This document shows, piece after piece, positions 18,720 through 31,122 of a DNA stretch of 34,554 bases. Position 1 is the stretch's first letter; the number at the start of each line of letters is the position of its first letter. This DNA is from Anaerolineales bacterium (GTDB lineage: Bacteria; Chloroflexota; Anaerolineae; CG2-30-64-16). The DNA is taken from positions 1 through 34,554 of the forward strand of contig JADGQF010000012.1 of assembly GCA_017882045.1 (NCBI GenBank). Reading direction: 5' to 3'. The notes beneath the pieces were generated by a model, which had not been told where the DNA came from, searched no databases, and saw nothing but the letters and a program-made list of their open reading frames with translations. The translations under genes were made by a program, and so were the position numbers.

Positions 18720-19157
18720 ATGAATATCCTTGTCCTGCATGGGCCAAACATGAACATGCTCGGTAGACGTGAGCCCGGAATCTATGGCACGCTGACTTTG
18801 GAAGAGATCAACCGCCAGTTGGAGGCCAGCGCGCAGCAGCAGGGACTCGTCCTGCGCATCCTGCAGTCTAACTACGAGGGCGCGTTGATCGATGCCATTC
18901 AGCAGGCCGGCGGTTGGGCCGATGCGCTCCTGATCAATGCCGCCGGGCTGACGCACTATTCATACTCCTTGCGCGACGCCATCGCCGGCGCCGGCATCCC
19001 GGCGGTAGAAGTCCACATGAGCAACATTTATGCGCGAGAAGCCTTTCGCCACACGTCCGTGATCGCGCCCGTCTGCCGCGGTCAGATCAGTGGCTTCGGC
19101 GCACAGAGCTATCTGCTTGGACTGGCTGCCCTCGCCGGTCAGAAGACGACTACGTGA
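18720..19157 (+). CDS. aroQ: Type II 3-dehydroquinate dehydratase
   Basis: [31 protein letters not shown]...[15 protein letters not shown]...[17 protein letters not shown]...[31 protein letters not shown]. Confidence 0.96.
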
Positions 19158-19202: not shown

Positions 19203-19230
19203 TTGACAACTGACGGTATCGGGTTATAAT
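19203..19230 (+). promoter_or_regulatory. Sigma70 promoter of lysine operon
   Basis: TTGACA (19203-19208), 16 bp, TATAAT (19225-19230). Confidence 0.82.
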
Positions 19231-19264
19231 GCCGCACATTCTTTTCAGAGAGATTTGCGCCGTT

Positions 19265-19342
19265 ATGATGCTAAGGTCACCTAAGTTCCCTAAGTGCAAG
19301 AAGCCTTCCCTCGGCAGGGACGGCTGTTTGTGCCTGGGGTAA
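19265..19342 (+). CDS. Lysine-rich leader peptide 1 (attenuator)
   Basis: MMLRSPKFPKCKKPSLGRDGCLCLG*; four AAG codons within seven (19283-19303); followed by a strong terminator. Confidence 0.65.
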   Translation: MMLRSPKFPKCKKPSLGRDGCLCLG

Positions 19343-19364
19343 CGGCAATACCCGCCAAGCACAG

Positions 19365-19405
19365 CGCCCTGCCAGGACAAGGTCCCGGTGGGGCGTTTCT
19401 TTTTT
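19365..19405 (+). terminator. Lys attenuator terminator 1
   Basis: CGCCCTGCCAGGAC (19365-19378) AAG GTCCCGGTGGGGCG (19382-19395), one mismatch, then TTTCTTTTTT. Confidence 0.88.
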
Positions 19406-19430: not shown

Positions 19431-19508
19431 ATGATGCATAGCCAACTGGCCGTTGCACCTCGCGCTAAGAAGCAGAGCACCAACCTGCCGGACTGGAGGT
19501 CCGGATAG
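19431..19508 (+). CDS. Candidate leader peptide 2 with Lys-Lys codons
   Basis: MMHSQLAVAPRAKKQSTNLPDWRSG*; AAG AAG at 19467-19472; lies between terminators 1 and 2. Shine-Dalgarno weak. Confidence 0.35.
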   Translation: MMHSQLAVAPRAKKQSTNLPDWRSG

Positions 19509-19541
19509 GCGGCTCGCGCGCACCCCTCATCGGTCAACGCA

Positions 19542-19583
19542 AGCCCCCATCCGCCAGTCTGGCGGGTGGGGGCTTTGTATTTT
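19542..19583 (+). terminator. Lys leader terminator 2
   Basis: AGCCCCCATCCGCCA (19542-19556) GTC TGGCGGGTGGGGGCT (19560-19574), then TTGTATTTT. Confidence 0.88.
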
Positions 19584-19610
19584 ATCTCACTTAGAAAGGA
19601 AACTTGCACC

Positions 19611-19781
19611 ATGTCTTACCAAACTGTCTGTCCGGAATGTGAAGGCGATCTGACCCTGGATGATCCGATGGTCGGGGAGATCCTGCCCTGCGCCTTCTGT
19701 GGCGTCGATCTGGAGGTTACTTCGCTGGACCCGCTCCAGCTGGAGATGGCGCCCGAGGTGGAGGAGGATTGGGGAGAATGA
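19611..19781 (+). CDS. lysW: Amino-group carrier protein LysW
   Basis: [60 protein letters not shown]/CxxC zinc motifs and C-terminal EDWGE. Confidence 0.95.
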
Positions 19782-20671
19782 CAGCCATTCGTGTTGCAGT
19801 GATCCTATCGCGTATCCGCGTGGAGGAGAAGCTGCTGCTCTCAGCGCTCGAAGCTGCCGGGGCGGTTGTCCAGCTTTTGGACGATGGCGAGCTGGTCTTC
19901 CCGTTGGGCGATGGACGTCCCTGCCTGGAGGCGGACGTGGTGCTCGAACGCTCGCTGAGCGCTGCGCGTGGTCTGTACGCTCTGCGCCTCCTGGAACTGG
20001 CCGGCATCCCTACCGTCAATCGCTATGCCACGGCTGCGACCTGCGCCGACAAGCTGTTGACCACTGCCGCCCTCACCGAAGCCGGCGTTCCCCAGCCCCG
20101 GGCCCGCATCGCCTTCACGGCGGAGACGGCGCTGAACGCGATCGAGGAACTAGGTTATCCCGTAGTGCTCAAGCCGGTGGTCGGCTCCTGGGGCCGCCTG
20201 CTGGCGCGCATCAACGACCGGGACGCGGCTGAGGCCGTTCTGGAGCACAAAGAAACGCTGGGCTCCTACCAACACAGCATCTTCTATATCCAGGAGTACG
20301 TGGCCAAGCCCGGCCGTGACATCCGCGCGTTTGTCATTGGCGAGGAGACCGTGGGCGCGATCTATCGCCAATCGCCGCATTGGATCACGAACACCGCCCG
20401 CGGCGGCACCGCCAGCCGGTGCGAAGTGACCCCCGAAATCCATGCTCTCTGCCAGCGGGCGGCGCAGGCCGTCGGTGGCGGTGTTCTGGCGCTGGACCTG
20501 ATGGAGGACCCTGACCGGGGCCTGCTGGTCAATGAGGTCAACCACACGATGGAGTTTCGGAACAGTATTGCGCCCACTGGTGTCGACATCCCGGCCAGGG
20601 TGGTCCAGTACGTGCTGCGCCAGGCACGCGTGGGTGTCGCGTCCCAGGCCGTTCTGGAGCCGGCCCTATGA
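19778..20671 (+). CDS. lysX: LysW-alpha-aminoadipate ligase (LysX)
   Basis: [18 protein letters not shown]...[30 protein letters not shown]...[24 protein letters not shown]...[18 protein letters not shown]...[13 protein letters not shown]. Confidence 0.92.
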
Positions 20672-21723
20672 CGACTCGTGCGCGCGTCTCGATCGTCGGC
20701 GGCTCGGGTTATACGGGCGGCGAATTGCTTCGTCTGCTATTGGGGCATCCGGAAGTCGAGATTGCCCAGGTCACTTCGGAATCGCAGGCAGGCAACTACG
20801 TACACAGCTTGCATCCCAACTTGCGTCCTGTCGCCGGTCGTCCGCAGCCGCTGCGCTTCACGACCTCTGCTGAACTGGCGCCGTGTGATGTCCTGTTCCT
20901 GGCCCTGCCGCACGGTCAGGCCCAGGGCCGGATCGAGGAGTTCGCGGCGTTGGCTGAACGGATCGTGGATCTTTCGGCCGACTTTCGCCTGCGCGATGGC
21001 CAGGTCTACCAGCAGTATTATGGCGAACCTCACAAAGCGCCCGATTGGCTCGGGCGCTTTGTTTATGGTCTGCCCGAGCTGAACCGCGAGTGCATCCGCG
21101 GGGCGCGCTACGTGAGTGGCGTCGGCTGCAACGCCACGGCTTCAATCCTGGCCCTGCTGCCGCTGAGCCGGTCGGGGCTGCTCCTGCCGGAACGACCCCT
21201 GGTAGTCGATCTGAAGGCCGGATCCTCCGAGAGCGGCGCCTCTCCCAGCGCGGCTTCGCATCACCCGGAACGCAGCGGAGCGGTGCGCTCGTTTGCTCCA
21301 ACCGGGCACCGGCACGAGGCCGAGGTGGCGCAGGCCCTGGGGCGTCCGGACGTTTACCTGTCGGTCACCTCCATCGAATTGGTGCGGGGAGTGCTGGCTA
21401 CCGCCCATGCGTGGGTAGAACCGGGCGTTGGCGACAACGAGTTATGGCGCGCTTACCGGAGCGCCTATGGCGCCGAGCCCTTCGTGCGTATCGTGCACGA
21501 GCGTGGCGGCATCTACCGGCATCCAGAGCCGAAACTGCTGGCAGGCACGAACCTGGCGGACGTGGGCTGGGACGTGGACACGCGCACCGGCCGCCTGGTC
21601 GCCCTGTCGGCCATCGACAACCTTGGCAAAGGCGCGGCGGGCAGCGCCGTGCAATGCCTCAATCTCATGCTGGGTTGGGACGAAAGCGCGGGCCTGCAGT
21701 TCATGGGCCTGCATCCTGTTTAG
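20668..21723 (+). CDS. lysY: LysW-aminoadipyl-6-phosphate reductase (ArgC-like)
   Basis: [34 protein letters not shown]...[19 protein letters not shown]...[36 protein letters not shown]. Confidence 0.92.
21032..21064 (+). terminator. Intragenic terminator-like hairpin within lysY
   Basis: ACAAAGCGCCCGA (21032-21044) TTGGC TCGGGCGCTTTGT (21050-21062), 13 bp perfect, then TT. Confidence 0.5.
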
Positions 21724-21776
21724 GCGAGCATTCTGGCCAGCCATGCTGGGCGTACATTGTCGAGCGAGGAGCAATC

Positions 21777-22673
21777 ATGAATCCGATCATCGTGAAAGTA
21801 GGTGGGGCGGCAGGCGTCGATAGCGCCGCGGTCTGCGCAGACGTAGCCGCGCTCACTGCGCGTGGGCTGCCGGTCATCCTGGTGCACGGGACGTCGGCGG
21901 CAGCCGACGCCCTGGCTACGCGCGCGGGCGTGCCGGTGCGCCACCTGGTTTCGCCATCGGGCCACGTCAGCCGTTACACCGACCCGGTCATGCTGGAGCT
22001 GTACGTCGCCGCCGCGGCGGGCCAGGTGAATAAAACGCTGGTCGCCATGCTGCAAAGGCTGGGCTGCAATGCCCTCGGTCTCTCGGGCGTGGATGGGCGC
22101 CTGCTGCAGGCGCGGCGCAAGAACGCCCTGCGCGTGGTCGAAAACGGCCGCCAGCGCGTGGTGCGCGATGACTACAGCGGGCAACTTGAGATAGCCAACG
22201 GCGGTCTGTTGCGCCTGCTGTTGGATGCCGGTTACACGCCTGTTGTTGCGCCCTTGGCGCTGGGCAGCGAAGGGGAGCCGCTGAACGTGGACGGCGACCG
22301 GGTAGCGGCTTTGCTGGCGCGGACGGTGGGCGCGCAGATGCTGCTGATCCTCAGCAATACGGTCGGGTTGCTGGCGAATTTCCCGGACGAAAGCACCATT
22401 ATGCGCCGTGTCCCGTATGAAAGGCTGGCCGCGGCCGAAGACGTGGCGCAGGGGCGCATGAAGAAAAAGGTGTTGGCCGCGCGCGAGGCGCTCGAAGGCG
22501 GCGTCCCGTCGGTCATCTTTGCCGACTCGCGCCGGGCTCACCCAGTCGAGTCCGGGCTGAGTGGTGAGGGAACAGTGTTCGAGAACGCTCGCAGCGCCAC
22601 GGCCGGCCCGTTCGCGCTCCCGGTTTCCTGGCCTCTCCCTCGTCTCCAGGGCGCAGACGGGGGTGGCGAGTGA
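21777..22673 (+). CDS. lysZ: LysW-aminoadipate kinase (ArgB-like)
   Basis: Start ATG 21777 after GAGGAGC; IIVKVGGAAGVDS...VILVHGTSAAADALATRAGVPVRHLVSPSGHVSRYTDPVMLE...NALGLSGVDGRLLQARRK. Confidence 0.93.
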   Translation: MNPIIVKVGGAAGVDSAAVCADVAALTARGLPVILVHGTSAAADALATRAGVPVRHLVSPSGHVSRYTDPVMLELYVAAAAGQVNKTLVAMLQRLGCNALGLSGVDGRLLQARRKNALRVVENGRQRVVRDDYSGQLEIANGGLLRLLLDAGYTPVVAPLALGSEGEPLNVDGDRVAALLARTVGAQMLLILSNTVGLLANFPDESTIMRRVPYERLAAAEDVAQGRMKKKVLAAREALEGGVPSVIFADSRRAHPVESGLSGEGTVFENARSATAGPFALPVSWPLPRLQGADGGGE

Positions 22674-23851
22674 TGGATCAGCAGAGCATAATCGAGCTGG
22701 AGGCAAGGTATACGTCCGGTGTATACCCCAAGCGCCCCCTGGCCATCGTGCGCGGGCAGGGCGCACGGGTGTGGGACGCGGACGGGAACGAGTACATCGA
22801 TTGTGTTGGCGGTCAGGGAGCGGCTAACCTGGGGCACGCGCATCCGGCCATCGTCTCGGCGGTTGCCGAGCAAGCCGCCCGGCTCATCTCCTGTCCAGAG
22901 ATCTTCTATAACGACCGGCGCGCGCAACTGCTCGCCGCGCTCGCCGGGGTGGCGCCGGCCGGGCTCACGCGCATCTTTCTCTGCAACTCGGGCACCGAGG
23001 CAGTCGAGGCGGCGCTCAAGCTCGCGCGGGCGAGCACCGGGCGCAGCGGGATCGTCGCCGCCATGCGCGGTTTTCACGGGCGCACGATGGGCGCGCTCTC
23101 GGCCACCTGGAACCGGGAGTATCGCCAGCCTTTCGAGCCACTGGTGCCCGGTTTTGCCCACGTGCCCTTTAACGACCTGGCGGCTCTCGAACGCGCGCTG
23201 TCCGATAACACCGCGGCGGTCCTGCTCGAAGCGGTGCAGGGAGAGGGCGGGGTCCATCTCGGCGAGCCGGCCTTCTTGCGTGGCGCACAGGAACTGTGCC
23301 GGGAGCGAGGCGCGCTGCTCATCATCGACGAAGTGCAGACTGGCTATGGGCGCACCGGTTGCTTCTTCGCCTCCCAGCATTATGGCATCGAGCCGGATCT
23401 GATGGCCGTCGCGAAGTCAATGGCCGGCGGACTGCCGATGGGCGCCTGCCTGATTGGCCCGCGTGTTGCGCCTCCGCCCGCGCACAGCCACGGCAGCACC
23501 TTCGGCGGCAACCCGCTGGCCTGCGCGGCTGCGCTGGCGACGCTACAGGTGATGGCCGGCGAAGACCTGCCGGGCCGGGCCGCGCGGCTTGGCGCCCGCT
23601 TGCTTGAGCGCTTGCAGGCGCTGCGCTCGCCGCTGATCCGGGAAGTGCGCGGCCTGGGTCTGCTGGTCGGAATTGAACTCAAAACCAAGGTGACGCCGAT
23701 CTTGCAGGGGTTACAGTCCCGCGGGGTCCTAGCCTTGCCCGCCGGAGCGACGGTGCTCCGTCTGCTGCCGCCCCTGGTCATCGAGGAGGAAGACCTGGAG
23801 CGGGTAGTGGGCGCGATAGCGCAAACCTTGGAGGTGCGCCGTGTCGCTTGA
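22673..23851 (+). CDS. lysJ: LysW-aminoadipate semialdehyde aminotransferase (ArgD-like)
   Basis: [53 protein letters not shown]...[17 protein letters not shown]...[13 protein letters not shown]...[13 protein letters not shown]. Confidence 0.94.
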
Positions 23852-25043
23852 ACAGTACGCGATCATTGATTCCACGTTGCGAGAGGGCGAGCAGTTCATC
23901 AATGCCAACTTCACGCACGAGCAGAAGGTCGAGATTGCCCGAGCCTTGGATGAATTCGGCGTCGAATGCCTCGAGCTTACTTCACCGCTGGCCTCTCCCG
24001 GCAGCGCAGAAGATGCCCGCACCATCGCACGCCTCGGCTTGAAGGCGAAGGTCCTTACGCATATTCGCTGTCAGAAGGAAGACGCGCGCGTGGCTCTCGA
24101 CACCGGTGTGGCCGGCCTCGACGTCGTCATCGGTACCTCCTCGGCCCTGCGCCGTTTCAGCCACAGCAAGAGCATCGAGGAGATCATCGATCTGGCCGCC
24201 GATGTGTTGACCTGGATAAGATCTCAGGCGCCGGATATCGTGCTGCGTTTCAGCACGGAGGACTCCTTCCGCAGCGAGGAGGCCGATCTGTTCCGTGTCT
24301 ACCTGGCGGTCGATCGCCTGGGCGTGGTGAATCGCCTGGGCATCGCCGACACGGTCGGCATCGCTTCGCCCGGACAGGTGGCGCGCATCGTCGGCACCCT
24401 GCGCCGCATGACCAAGGCGGATATTGAGTTCCACGGTCACAATGACTCCGGCTGCGCAGTCGCCAACGCTTTCGCCGCCCTCGAAGGCGGCGCGACCCAC
24501 ATCGATACTACGGTTCTCGGCATCGGCGAGCGCAACGGGATTGCTTCGCTGGGCGCCTTCATCGCCCGCATGTACACCTGGGATCGTGACCTGGTACGCC
24601 AGAAGTACCATCTGGACGGCCTGCGCGGGTTGGAGCTCCTGATAGCCGAGCTCGTCGGCGTCGATATCCCGTTCAATAACTGCATTACCGGCTACTGCGC
24701 GTTTACTCACAAGGCCGGCATCCATGCCAAGGCAATCCTCAACGCCCCGGAAACCTATGAGGCGCTCGATCCTCACGATTTCGGCGTGACCCGCTACGTC
24801 TCGATCGCCCATCGTCTGACCGGCTGGAATGCCGTCAAGGGCCGCGCTGATCAACTGGGCGTGGCTCTGAGCACCGAACAGATCAAAGCCCTTACGTTGC
24901 ACATCAAGGCCCTGGCCGACGAAAAGCGCCTGACCCTGGATGACGTGGATGATTTGCTCCGGCTCTGGGCGAACGGCCATCACGATGCGGCGACGGATTC
25001 GGCGCTCAGCCTGGCCGAAGAAACGCCCGCAGATGCCCAGTGA
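23841..25043 (+). CDS. Homocitrate synthase
   Basis: [44 protein letters not shown]...[38 protein letters not shown]; in LysW cluster. Confidence 0.92.
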
Positions 25044-25054
25044 TGGAGGGTTAG

Positions 25055-26395
25055 ATGGCATATACCTTCGCCGAAAAAGCCCTGGCGCGGGCCGCGGGCC
25101 TGCCGTCGGCGGTGGCCGGGCAGATCGTCGACGCCCGGCCGGATGTAGTGCTGAGCCACGATAATACGGCTGCCATCGCCCGCATCTTTCATGACCTGGG
25201 AGCCGACCGCGTGCAGCACCCGGAGCGGCTGGCGATCACTCTCGATCATGCGGTGCCGGCGCCAACCACGCAACACGCGGCCAACCATGCCGAGGTGCGC
25301 AGGTTTGTGGCCGAGCAAGGCATCCCTCACTTCTTTGAAGCGGGACGGGGCATCTGCCACCAGGTGATCAGCGAAGAGGCGCTGGTCTGGCCCGGCCAGC
25401 TTATTCTCGGCGCCGACAGTCATACCACCCACTTCGGTTGGCTGGGCGCCTTCGGGGCCGGGGTGGGCCGCAGCGAGATTGCCGCGCTCTGGGCCACGGG
25501 CGAGCTATGGCTGCGCGTGCCCGAAACGATCCTCGTCCACCTGGCGGGCCGCCTGCCGCCATGGGTCAGCGCCAAGGATCTGAGCCTGTGGGTACTGCGC
25601 CGGCTGGGTCCTGAGGCGGGCATCTATTGCGCCGTGGAGTTCGCCGGTCCCGGCATTGCCGGCCTGAGCCTCGAAAGCCGGATGGTACTGCCCAACATGA
25701 TGGCCGAGGCCGGCGTCAAGAACGCCTATGTGCCGCCGGACAGCGCCGTGTATGCCTGGCTGGCCGGCCGGGTGGCGGCGCGCACTGGGCAGCCGGAAGG
25801 CGAATGCCTGGACCGTATCGCGGCGGGTGCGCTGTTCCCCGATGCGGATGCTACCTACCTGGCTCGTCAAACCGTCGAGCTGGGGGAGCTTCAACCGTTT
25901 GTGGCCGCCCCGCACCGCCCAGACAACGTCGTGCCGGTCTCCGCGCTGGCCGGCATCCACGTGGACCAGGCCTTTCTCGGCACCTGTACTAACGCGCGCC
26001 TGGAGGACCTGAAGATCGCGGCCTCTGTGCTGCGCCGCCCGGACGGCCGGGTGCGCCATGTGGCGCCCGGCACGCGCCTCCTGGTCATCCCGGCCTCCAG
26101 CGAGGTCCTTCGGGCGGCGCTCGCCGCCGGCTACATCGAAACCTTCCTGGCCGCCGGTGGCATGATCGGCACGCCCGGCTGCGGCCCCTGCATGGGTAAT
26201 CATATGGGCGTCCCGGCCCCCGGCGAGGTCACCATCAGCAGCGCCAACCGTAACTTCCGCGGCCGCATGGGCACCGCCGAGAGCGAGGTATACCTGGCCA
26301 GCCCGGCGGTGGTGGCCGCCAGCGCGGTGGCGGGCCACATAGTCGATCCACGCGCAGTGGTAGAAACTGGAGATGATGCCGAATGGGGAGCCTGA
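25055..26395 (+). CDS. lysT: Homoaconitase large subunit
   Basis: [14 protein letters not shown]...[44 protein letters not shown]...[15 protein letters not shown]...[35 protein letters not shown]. Confidence 0.92.
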
Positions 26396-26928
26396 TCCAG
26401 GGTCCAGAAGCGAAGGTCCAGCATCTGACGGGCCGCGTCTGGAAATACGGCGACGACGTCAATACCGACGTCATCTTTCCGGGCAAGTACACGTACACGC
26501 TGACCGATCCCGAGCAGATGGCGCAGCATGCGCTCGAAGACCTTGATACTGCTTTCGCCGGCGCCGTCCGCCCCGGCGATATCATCGTGGCCGGCCGCAA
26601 CTGGGGCTGCGGCTCGAGCCGTGAGCAGGCCGTGACCTGCCTGGTGGCGGCAGGCGTGCGGGCGATCGTCGCCGTGTCCTTCGCCCGTATCTTCTTTCGC
26701 AACGCAGTCAACAACGGTCTGTTGCCCGTTGTCTGCCCGGAGGCAGTGAGTGCGATCCCGCCCGGCTCGATCGTCAGCGTAAACCTGCAGACTTGCCGGG
26801 TGCTCTACGGCGAGCGAGCCTTCATTTTTCCGCCCCTCTCGCCTTCGCTCTTGCAGATCATCGAGGCGGGCGGGCTGATCCCCATGCTCAAGAGGAAGTA
26901 TGCCGCTAATCTGTCTGATCCCAGGTGA
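26383..26928 (+). CDS. lysU: Homoaconitase small subunit
   Basis: [39 protein letters not shown]...[47 protein letters not shown]. Confidence 0.92.
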
Positions 26929-27931
26929 TGGTATCGGCCGGGAGGTCGTCCCCGCCGCGGCCCAGGTGCTGGCCGCGGTCCAGCCGGATCTGCGCTTCGT
27001 CGAGGCTGACGCGGGGTGGGATTGCTTTCAACGCAGCGGCAGCGCGTTGCCCGACGCGACCCGCGCGGCCGTCGGATCGGCGGATGCTACGCTCTTCGGC
27101 GCAACCCAATCTCCCAGTGGGCCGGTGGCAGGTTATGCCAGCCCGATCCTCGCGCTGCGGCGCAGCTTCGATCTCTATGCTAACCTGCGCCCGGTGAACA
27201 CGCTTCTGCCCGGCCAGCCCAAGGTGGATCTGTTGATCGTGCGCGAGAACACGGAGGGTCTGTACAGCGGCCGGGAACATCGTGAGGGAGATACGGCGAT
27301 CGCCGAACGGGTGATAACCCGCCCGGCCAGTGAACGCATCGCGCGTGTCGCCTTTGAGCAAGCCCGCCTGCGCGCGCAGGCGCGGCTCGCAGCCGGAGAG
27401 GCGTCCTCGCCCTCCGCCACCGTCACCATCGTGCACAAAGCCAACGTCTTGAAGCTGAGCGACGGCCTGTTCCGCGAGACCTGCCTGGGCGTGGCCGCTG
27501 AGTATCCCGACATCCGTGTGAAGGAAATGCTGGTCGACGCGGCTGCCATGTGGCTGGTCAAGGAACCGGCCCGTTTCGACGTGCTGGTTACTACGAACCT
27601 GTTCGGCGATATTCTGTCGGACCTGGCGGCGGGCCTGGTCGGCGGCCTGGGCGCCGCACCTTCGGCCAACGTCGGGGCCGGGCCGGTGGCCGTCTTCGAG
27701 CCGGTGCACGGCAGCGCCCCCGACATCGCGGGCCGGGGGATCGCCAATCCACTGGGCGCGGTCCTCAGCGCGGCGTTGCTCCTCGAGCATATCGGCCGGG
27801 GCGCAGCGGCGCGGCGCGTCAGGCGGGCGGTAACGAGGTCGCTGGCCGGCGGCACGCTGACGCCGGACCTGGGCGGCGCGGCCACGACCGGGCAGGTAGT
27901 CGCCGCGGTCCTGCAGGGTCTGGAGGACTGA
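26900..27931 (+). CDS. Homoisocitrate dehydrogenase
   Basis: [24 protein letters not shown]...[16 protein letters not shown]...[17 protein letters not shown]...[30 protein letters not shown]. Confidence 0.92.
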
Positions 27932-27938
27932 TTTGCTG

Positions 27939-29018
27939 ATGCTAGAAGATGAAGGGCTGCGTTTGCTGCAGGACCTGGTAGCCATCCCCTCGCTTTCCGG
28001 CCAGGAGGCCGCGGCCAGCGCTTTCCTGGTGGACTGGATGGCGGCGCATGGCTTCCGGGCCTTCGTCGATCCCGCGGGCAATGCCGTCGGTGTGTTGGAA
28101 GGCGGCCCGGGCGCGGCGGACGAGCCGGCCAGAGAAATCCTGCTGCTAGGGCACATCGACACTGTGCCGGGCCGCCTGCCGGTGATGGTCCGGGACGGCA
28201 AGCTCTACGGACGCGGCGCGGTGGACGCCAAGGGTCCGCTGGCGGCCTTTGCCACAGCAGCAGCCCAGGCGGGAGCGCAGCCAGGCTGGCGCATCGTCGT
28301 CGCCGGCGCGGTGGAAGAGGAGGCGGCCACATCCAGGGGCGCGCGCTACCTTGCGCCACAGCACCGTCCGGCCCTGGCGGTCATCGGCGAACCCAGCGGC
28401 TGGCAGCGGGTCACCGTGGGATACAAAGGGCGGCTGCTGGCCGACGCGACGGTGCGCCAGGCTATCTCTCATCGCAGCGGGCGCCTTCCGAGCGCCTGCG
28501 AGCTGGCAGTTTCTTTCTGGAACCGGGTAGAGGCCCACCTGGGCGAGTGGAATGCCGGGCGCGAGCGCGCCTGGGACCAGGTGTTGCCCGCGTTGTTCGG
28601 CTTTGCTTCAAGCGATGATGGTTTGGTCGAGGAAGCGCGCCTTAAGGTTGGCTTCCGTCTCCCGCCAGATATGGGGCCTGAGGAACTGAAACCCGTCCTG
28701 CAAGGCTTGGCCGGCAGTATTGCCCTGTCGTTTCGCGGCGAGGAATCGGCCTACCAGGCGGAGAAAGACAGCCCACTCGCCCGCGCCTTTCTGAGGGCGA
28801 TCCGCGAGCAGGGCGGCCGGCCCGGTTTCCTGCTGAAGACCGGCACGTCGGACATGAATGTGGTTGGACCGCTTTGGCGCTGCCCGATCCTTGCCTACGG
28901 ACCGGGCGACAGCAGCCTGGACCACACACCCGAGGAGCACATCGACCTGCAGGAGTGGGCTCAGGGTGTCGGTGTGCTGGCCTATGTTCTGCGCTCGCTC
29001 GGTGAAAGGGGCGGGTAA
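27939..29018 (+). CDS. lysK: LysW-lysine hydrolase (M20-like)
   Basis: [31 protein letters not shown]...[15 protein letters not shown]...[20 protein letters not shown]...[14 protein letters not shown]...[12 protein letters not shown]. Confidence 0.92.
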
Positions 29019-29077: not shown

Positions 29078-29106
29078 TTGACAGATGCAAAATACTATGT
29101 TAACAT
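29078..29106 (+). promoter_or_regulatory. Sigma70-like promoter of ilv-leu operon
   Basis: TTGACA (29078-29083), 17 bp, TAACAT (29101-29106). Confidence 0.72.
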
Positions 29107-29149
29107 CCCGAGCGGTAACGTAAGGCACGTAAGATGAGGATATGAACTG

Positions 29150-29236
29150 ATGCAGTTCTATGGCCTGGTAATCGTTCTTATTAGCGTGCTCCTAAGCCTG
29201 TCGCTTATGGAGCCACTACCTGTTGGGAGGACGTAG
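29150..29236 (+). CDS. Branched-chain amino acid leader peptide (attenuator)
   Basis: MQFYGLVIVLISVLLSLSLMEPLPVGRT*; dense Leu/Val/Ile codons 29165-29206; GAGG ~10 nt upstream; downstream terminator with competing antiterminator; precedes ilvB. Confidence 0.88.
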   Translation: MQFYGLVIVLISVLLSLSLMEPLPVGRT

Positions 29237-29271
29237 GCCAGACCGTAACCGCCGCCAAGCTGACGAGCCAG

Positions 29272-29302
29272 GGGCCTCCCAACAAGGGAGGCCCTTTTTC
29301 TT
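29272..29302 (+). terminator. ilv attenuator terminator 1
   Basis: GGGCCTCCC (29272-29280) AACAA GGGAGGCCC (29286-29294) TTTTTCTT. Confidence 0.92.
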
Positions 29303-29341
29303 GCCTGATATTGTCTGCAGCTTGCATGCTGCCGGGTAAAG

Positions 29342-29404: not shown

Positions 29405-31122
29405 ATGAGGCAAAGAAAGAGTGGGGCGCAGATCGTGTGGGAGAGCATGCTTCACGAAGGCGTCGACGTTGTCTTCGGCTTGCCCGGTGGCGCAACCCTG
29501 CCCATTTACGACGCGCTGGCCAAGTATCACTATCCGATCCGCCACGTCCTCGTGACCCATGAACAGGGCGCGGCTCACATGGCCGACGGTTACGCGCGCG
29601 CGAGTGGGCGGGTGGGGGTCTGCCTGGCCACTTCGGGTCCCGGCGCCACGAACCTGGTCACCGGACTGGCGACGGCTTTTATGGACTCTTCACCCGTGGT
29701 CGCCATCACCGGCCAGGTGTCGACCGCTTTGCTGGGGCGAGATGGCTTCCAGGAGGCGGACATGCAGGGGGTCAGCCTGCCGGTGACCAAGCACAACTAC
29801 TTGATCACCAAGATTCAGGACCTCCCCGATGCCCTCAAAGAAGCCTTCTACATCGCCCGCACCGGGCGACCCGGCCCGGTCGTCGTAGACATCGCCAAAG
29901 ATGTGCAGCAAGCTGAAATGGAGCTGGAATATCCCACCTCGGTGAACTTGCCCGGTTACGACCCTGCCCTGAGCGCGGCCGATCCTAAGGCCATCGCTCG
30001 TGCGGCCCGGCTCATCAACGATGCCGAACGGCCGGTGATCATCGCCGGCCAGGGGGTGCTGATCGCGAAGGCGACCGCAGAACTGCGCCAGCTTGTCGAA
30101 AAGGCCAACATCCCCGTCGCGACCAGCCTGTTGGGCATCGGCACCCTGCCTGCCACGCACCCACTTTCGATGGGTATGGGCGGGATGCACGGCGAGGCTT
30201 ACACCAACTATGCAATCCAGGAATGCGATATCCTGGTGGCCATCGGTTCCCGGTTGGACGACCGTTTGACGGGTGCTTTCAGCAGCTTCGCGCCGAAGGC
30301 GCGCATCATCCATATCGACCTCGATCCCGCGGAAGTGGGCAAGACGATGACCATCGACACACCGGTCATCGGGGACGCCTTGCTGACGCTGCGCGAACTC
30401 ATCCCCCTGGTCGAGCCCAAGAGGCACCCGGACTGGTTGGCCCAGATCGCCGAATGGCGCGGCGACACCGACCGGCGCGACGTGCTGGCGCGTGAGGCGG
30501 ACGAACTCGTCCCCCCTTTCATCATGCGCGAGCTGTGGTACCAGACCGACGAGGGCAACTGCATCGTGGTCACCGATGTCGGCCAACACCAGATGTGGGA
30601 GGCCCAGTATTTCCCGCACATCCATCCGCGCAGCCTGATCACCTCCGGCGGCCTGGGCACCATGGGCTTCGCTCTGCCGGCGGCCATCGGCGCGCAGATG
30701 AGCCGGCCCGACGAGGAAGTGTGGGTGGTGGCGGGCGACGGCGGTTTCCAGATGACCATGCCGGAGCTGTCCACCGTGGTTGCCGAGGAGCTGCCGATCA
30801 AGATCGCGATCATCAACAATGGCTACCTGGGGATGGTGCGCCAGTGGCAGGACATCTTCTATGAACAGCGCTACGCCGGCACGCCGCTCTTCAATCCCGA
30901 TTTCGTGAAGATCGCCGATGCCTACTGCATCCCGGCCGTAACCGTTTCTCACAAGGAGGATGTGGACGGTGCGATCCAGCAGGCGCGCGCTCACAAGGGA
31001 CCGTTCCTGATCAACTTCAAGGTCGATCCGTTCACCAATGTGTATCCGATGGTGGCGCCGGGCAGAAGCAATGCCGATATGATCCGCCGGCCGCTGCCGG
31101 ACATGCCCAACGCAGAAGAGGC

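Follow-up and report, generated by a model that had tools for sequence, protein, structure and literature searches.

What controls the LysW operon for lysine biosynthesis in this Anaerolineales genome? In the window, by which we mean the whole stretch of 34,554 nucleotides analysed here, lysW is preceded by a promoter and a leader in which an earlier note, made from the sequence alone, had described a single attenuator. On the present evidence it is very probable (about 0.9) that two ribosome-mediated transcription attenuators stand in series between the lysW promoter and lysW, and that both of them read lysyl-tRNA. Such an arrangement would probably let the cell turn the operon on when lysine-charged tRNA is scarce.

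Anatomy of the leader

The features of the leader and of its surroundings are collected in Table 1. A site scan returned the TTGACA-16-TATAAT sequence as the best promoter-like site within 15-25 kb, and of 62 relatives, 37 have a promoter-like site ahead of the first Lys leader, in most cases with a spacing of 16-17. Leader ORF 1 carries four AAG codons within seven (KFPKCKK), and the predicted fold of positions 19237-19405 has a z-score of -3.06. Each of the elements described in the earlier note, namely the promoter, the leader ORF rich in Lys, the terminator and the antiterminator, is present where the note had placed it. The complementarity that it had pointed out between GGCAGGG (19313-19319) and CCCTGCC (19367-19373) is also there, and the helix is extended by GCTGT (19323-19327) and ACAGC (19361-19365), the whole antiterminator 1 duplex amounting to -23.0 kcal/mol. 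The ribosome-binding sites of the two leaders of the window look weak (AGAGAG and GAAAG).

The first unit is therefore real, while the idea of a single attenuator has to be revised because a complete second unit lies downstream. By its anatomy, the segment 19431-19585 is a second attenuator. Its leader ORF is kept in relatives as ..KRAKKQ..LPDW.SG*, its antiterminator 5' strand pairs with the 5' arm of terminator 2 in the predicted stalled-ribosome fold, and its terminator lies directly ahead of lysW. After lysW, NCBIfam models identify lysX, an argC-like lysY, lysZ, lysJ and homocitrate synthase, as well as the large and small subunits of homoaconitase, a homoisocitrate dehydrogenase-like gene and lysK.

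Table 1. Positions of the leader elements, the lysine operon and the ilvB leader in the window.
Feature	Coordinates	Strand	Remarks
Sigma-70-type promoter, TTGACA-16-TATAAT	19203..19230	+	consensus match 12/12
1:2 hairpin over leader ORF 1 (GCCGTTA...TAACGGC, long inner stem)	19259..19346	+	predicted fold
Leader ORF 1, MMLRSPKFPKCKKPSLGRDGCLCLG*	19265..19342	+	tandem Lys codons 19298-19303
Antiterminator 5' strand 1 (GGCAGGG..GCTGT)	19313..19327	+	pairs with 19361-19373
Antiterminator 3' strand 1	19361..19373	+	overlaps 5' arm of terminator 1
Intrinsic terminator 1 and T tract	19364..19405	+	14-pair stem 19364-19396, ending in GTTTCTTTTTT
Leader ORF 2, MMHSQLAVAPRAKKQSTNLPDWRSG*	19431..19508	+	AAG AAG at 19467-19472
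Antiterminator 5' strand 2 (ACTGG...CGGATAGGCGGCT)	19492..19518	+	just downstream of ORF 2 Lys codons
Intrinsic terminator 2 and T-rich tail (TTTGTATTTTAT)	19541..19585	+	16-pair stem, 19541-19575
Terminator 2 5' arm, also antiterminator 3' strand 2	19541-19558	+	
lysW	19611..19781	+	TIGR01206 above cut-off
Remaining lysine operon	19778..29018	+	NCBIfam, ORFs
ilvB promoter-like TTGACA	29078		
ilvB leader ORF, MQFYGLVIVLISVLLSLSLMEPLPVGRT*	29150-29236		rich in Leu/Val/Ile
ilvB terminator, GGGCCTCC..GGAGGCCC	near 29271-29303		

In each unit, then, the leader ORF contains tandem AAG codons, which are closely followed by an antiterminator strand; this strand can pair with the 5' arm of the terminator. 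With ample Lys-tRNA, the ribosome would reach the leader stop codon and mask the antiterminator strand, allowing the terminator to form. If Lys-tRNA is scarce, the ribosome would stall at the Lys codons, the antiterminator would form first and the polymerase would read on. Since the polymerase must pass both attenuators, read-through should multiply, resulting in tighter repression and a wider range of expression. What the analysis shows is the anatomy of the units, their conservation, their codon specificity, their co-variation and a predicted fold switch; that the leaders are translated, that ribosomes stall on them, that transcription terminates there in vivo and that the two read-through values multiply are steps that we infer.

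Conservation of the units across the class

A search for lysW found the gene in 49 of 60 relatives; over the whole class, 300 of 397 genomes gave a hit. The comparison covered 147 lysW upstream regions of this class. We looked for ORFs of 8-45 codons with at least three of one residue in six, followed by a terminator. Lys-rich ORFs of this kind were found in 60 of the 147 regions in the sense orientation, against a single antisense case and 0.0 cases per set after dinucleotide shuffling. Under the same criterion, Lys was followed by Arg (31), then Leu and Ser (23 each). These antisense, shuffle and amino-acid controls rule out that the Lys runs are a chance product of AAG-rich DNA, and conserved Lys codon runs upstream of lysW, which the earlier note had suggested looking for, are indeed found. 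The leader peptides diverge strongly in length and sequence while retaining in-frame Lys runs, as in MSHSLLSKCSKSKKLSLACRDGDLCLG* (a counterpart of leader ORF 1), MTTNLFIKKATKKPDHGSG* and MQHLFIDTKKQKKAKKPDRRPG*.

The order leader 1, terminator 1, leader 2, terminator 2 occurs at 25 loci, including the window, in five families (anonymous labels f1, f15, f20, f33 and f35). Could only one of the two units be functional, for instance unit 2, the other being a decaying relic? Unit 2 is the nearer one to lysW and looks like the attenuators that occur singly in other families, ORF 2 of the window lacks one flanking Lys codon found in relatives, and the units kept vary among relatives, as in the family member L005, in which leader ORF 2 is gone. 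However, terminator, KK codon pair and antiterminator are all retained in each unit of the window, two-unit leaders occur in five further members of its own family, and a constitutive terminator at either place would shut the operon. We therefore regard a single working unit as unlikely. L005 itself keeps both terminators upstream of lysW, and the one before lysW is thus left with no obvious antitermination signal.

No Lys leader was seen in f39, f43, f11 and f12, lineages that do have lysine operons. At seven loci of f39 and f43 (L014, L112, L122, L129, L131, L171 and L206), the lysW leader contains a promoter, a conserved non-Lys sequence (in f43, for example, GATGCAATCCGATT.ACC) and a terminator, and the operons of these two families that were read contain homocitrate synthase. 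These leaders possibly harbour a different, undescribed control element.

Predicted fold switch and co-variation

A product-codon-rich leader ORF and an intrinsic terminator between this ORF and the first gene are what the anatomy of an attenuator calls for, and both are found here. The alternative folds were analysed in 84 Lys units: a ribosome was positioned so that its A site held either the stop codon or the last Lys codon of the pair, and the RNA beyond it was folded. Across these units, the predicted antiterminator and the terminator exclude each other; antiterminator pairing is open while the ribosome is held at the Lys codons and mostly disappears once it is at the stop. With the RNA ending at the terminator loop, upstream pairing of the terminator 5' arm scored 0.68 for a stalled ribosome, 0.23 for one at the stop codon and 0.51 after shuffling of the segment in between (Wilcoxon 2.4e-12 for stalled versus shuffles and 9.5e-15 for stalled versus stop). 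In unit 1 of the window itself, arm pairing is no better than in shuffles (0.42 vs 0.55); its duplex lies within the best 3% of swapped pairs.

In longer RNA at equilibrium, the terminator is usually favoured even with a stalled ribosome (0.78 vs 0.97), so the switch must be kinetic, as it is in classical attenuators. Equilibrium folding alone makes a weak switch by these values, and we argue for the co-transcriptional version only.

The antiterminator strands fit the terminator of their own locus better than those of other loci (mean -18.6 vs -14.7 kcal/mol; 0 of 20,000 permutations reached this difference). The earlier note had also proposed looking for co-variation between antiterminator and terminator, and the preference for the own partner persists within families (0 of 50,000 within-family permutations). 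The antiterminators share a common core, CTGG:CCAG, with the co-varying pairs on its flanks, where 3.07 of 5 positions pair in own combinations and 2.08 in swapped ones (0 of 100,000). At one flanking position the compensated pairs include C-G, T-A and A-T.

Codon specificity, the arginine counterpart and known systems

Some lysW genes lacking Lys leaders are preceded by Arg-rich leaders followed by a terminator, for instance ..VRNSRRARAKR.. and ..LYRRARAM... Seven such loci were considered: L169 and L204 (f50), L192, L200 and L261 (f10), L106 (f53) and L027 (f9). They were picked before their downstream genes were inspected, except L261, which comes from a later comparator set. GC-rich DNA yields Arg-rich ORFs more readily by accident (2.3 per shuffled set), and many are incidental, so that the choice is partly a matter of judgement, based on repeated occurrence within f10 and f50 and on gene content. 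The operon stretches read covered 3-12 kb, and absence of a gene means absence nearby. Within them, homocitrate synthase accompanies 26 of 31 Lys-leader loci and 0 of 7 Arg-leader loci; argG, argH or carAB are found at 0 of 31 Lys-leader loci, and carAB or argG/argH at 5 of 7 Arg-leader loci (one-sided Fisher about 6e-5 and 4e-5, hand calculation). The identities of ArgG, ArgH and CarA were confirmed by NCBIfam. Since Arg leaders go with arginine genes and Lys leaders with homocitrate synthase, the leader codons track the product of the operon, and the Arg leaders suggest LysW-dependent arginine synthesis under Arg attenuation in Anaerolineae.

The arginine counterpart is a strong independent argument that specificity resides in the codons and not in an RNA aptamer. 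The rival view would be an untranslated RNA element, either a new lysine riboswitch or a tRNA-binding, T-box-like leader, with the AAG repeats lying within the aptamer. The very stable fold of the leader (z -5.0 for the whole region) would suit it. Conservation, however, concerns a reading frame that stays open and has its Lys codons in changing contexts, and not a fixed nucleotide core. AAA is also used in the leaders (338 AAG, 52 AAA), readouts of the AAG repeat in another frame are rarer (Glu 5, Lys 60), and the leaders of arginine operons spell Arg with differing synonymous triplets. Rfam gives no match either: no family reaches its gathering score in the window, L-box and T-box are missing there even at permissive E-values, and their covariance models found no match in 14 relatives. 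Taken together, these observations make an untranslated element very improbable. The preference for AAG has no support as a special tRNA signal, the ratio being 338:52 in leaders and 74:20 in the genes of the window. Near another lysW locus we observed an FMN riboswitch (RF00050, 93 bits, L015:820-986, minus strand), unrelated to the Lys attenuators.

That the terminators just end the upstream aro operon or insulate it, the short ORFs being accidental, is hardly credible: the aro genes do finish just upstream, at 19157, but a consensus promoter lies between them and the leader, placing both terminators downstream of the lysW promoter, and the leader-terminator unit is conserved before lysW in nine or more families.

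The earlier note's proposal that Lys-tRNA charging controls the LysW operon through leader-peptide attenuation is well supported by comparison, through the conserved Lys runs, the co-variation, the lack of a matching aptamer family and the independent Arg version, the response to charging itself being inferred. For Anaerolineae LysW leaders in general, we lean towards a wider hypothesis. In it, two attenuators that read one amino acid in succession form a multiplicative gate with switch-like behaviour, and a Lys-to-Arg codon exchange accompanies the change of a LysW operon from lysine to arginine production, so that the codons could reveal the product of an unannotated LysW operon.

Ribosome-mediated attenuation is a classical mechanism. 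The E. coli trp, his, leu and ilv attenuators likewise have a run of product codons, alternative 1:2, 2:3 and 3:4 pairings and a terminator before the first gene; here the signal is lysine or arginine and units with the same signal come in tandem, and we claim no sequence homology. The L-box and Lys T-boxes also regulate lysine genes through transcription termination and differ in the covariance models that the window and the 14 relatives fail to match. The lysine cluster of Thermus thermophilus is reportedly controlled by leader-peptide attenuation as well, sharing the LysW/alpha-aminoadipate pathway, the lysine signal and a Lys-codon leader peptide with a terminator. The Thermus attenuator is said to be single and to lie ahead of homocitrate synthase, whereas in the Chloroflexota window there are two in series, before lysW. 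Upstream of lysS on a Deinococcus plasmid we observed the ORF ATG ACC GCC CTT GCG ACC GCC AGC AAA AAA CCC ... TGA (MTALATASKKPTAPPG*), followed by a terminator-like GC-rich hairpin and a T-rich tract, as a single unit; this fits the Lys leader reported for Thermus thermophilus. The earlier note knew of no established ribosome-stalling Lys leader peptide; the view that there is no such precedent is thus probably wrong.

In Salmonella, two short ORFs in one leader, mgtM and mgtP, act on the transcription of the mgtCBR operon; they read different signals (ATP and proline) additively, (PMC3641672), whereas the two units of the window share the codons of one amino acid and have separate terminators. 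A search of the open literature returned no case of serial attenuators that read one amino acid and no Lys leaders in Chloroflexota, which is not proof of absence. The doubled Lys attenuator, its occurrence in Chloroflexota and the Lys/Arg exchange thus seem to be new, the attenuation principle being known. They would extend lysine ribosome-mediated attenuation from Deinococcota, where it has reportedly been described, to Chloroflexota. With tandem attenuators for one amino acid, one could also ask in a natural system whether attenuation in series makes a response sharper. The leader exchange could moreover discriminate, from sequence only, between lysine and arginine LysW operons, which are hard to tell apart by enzyme homology.

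The window contains a further, classical-looking leader attenuator (29078-29303), upstream of the acetolactate-synthase-like gene at 29405 (ilvB). A clear orthologue of this gene exists in 8 other members of the family, and each of the 8 is preceded by a similar Leu/Ile/Val leader.
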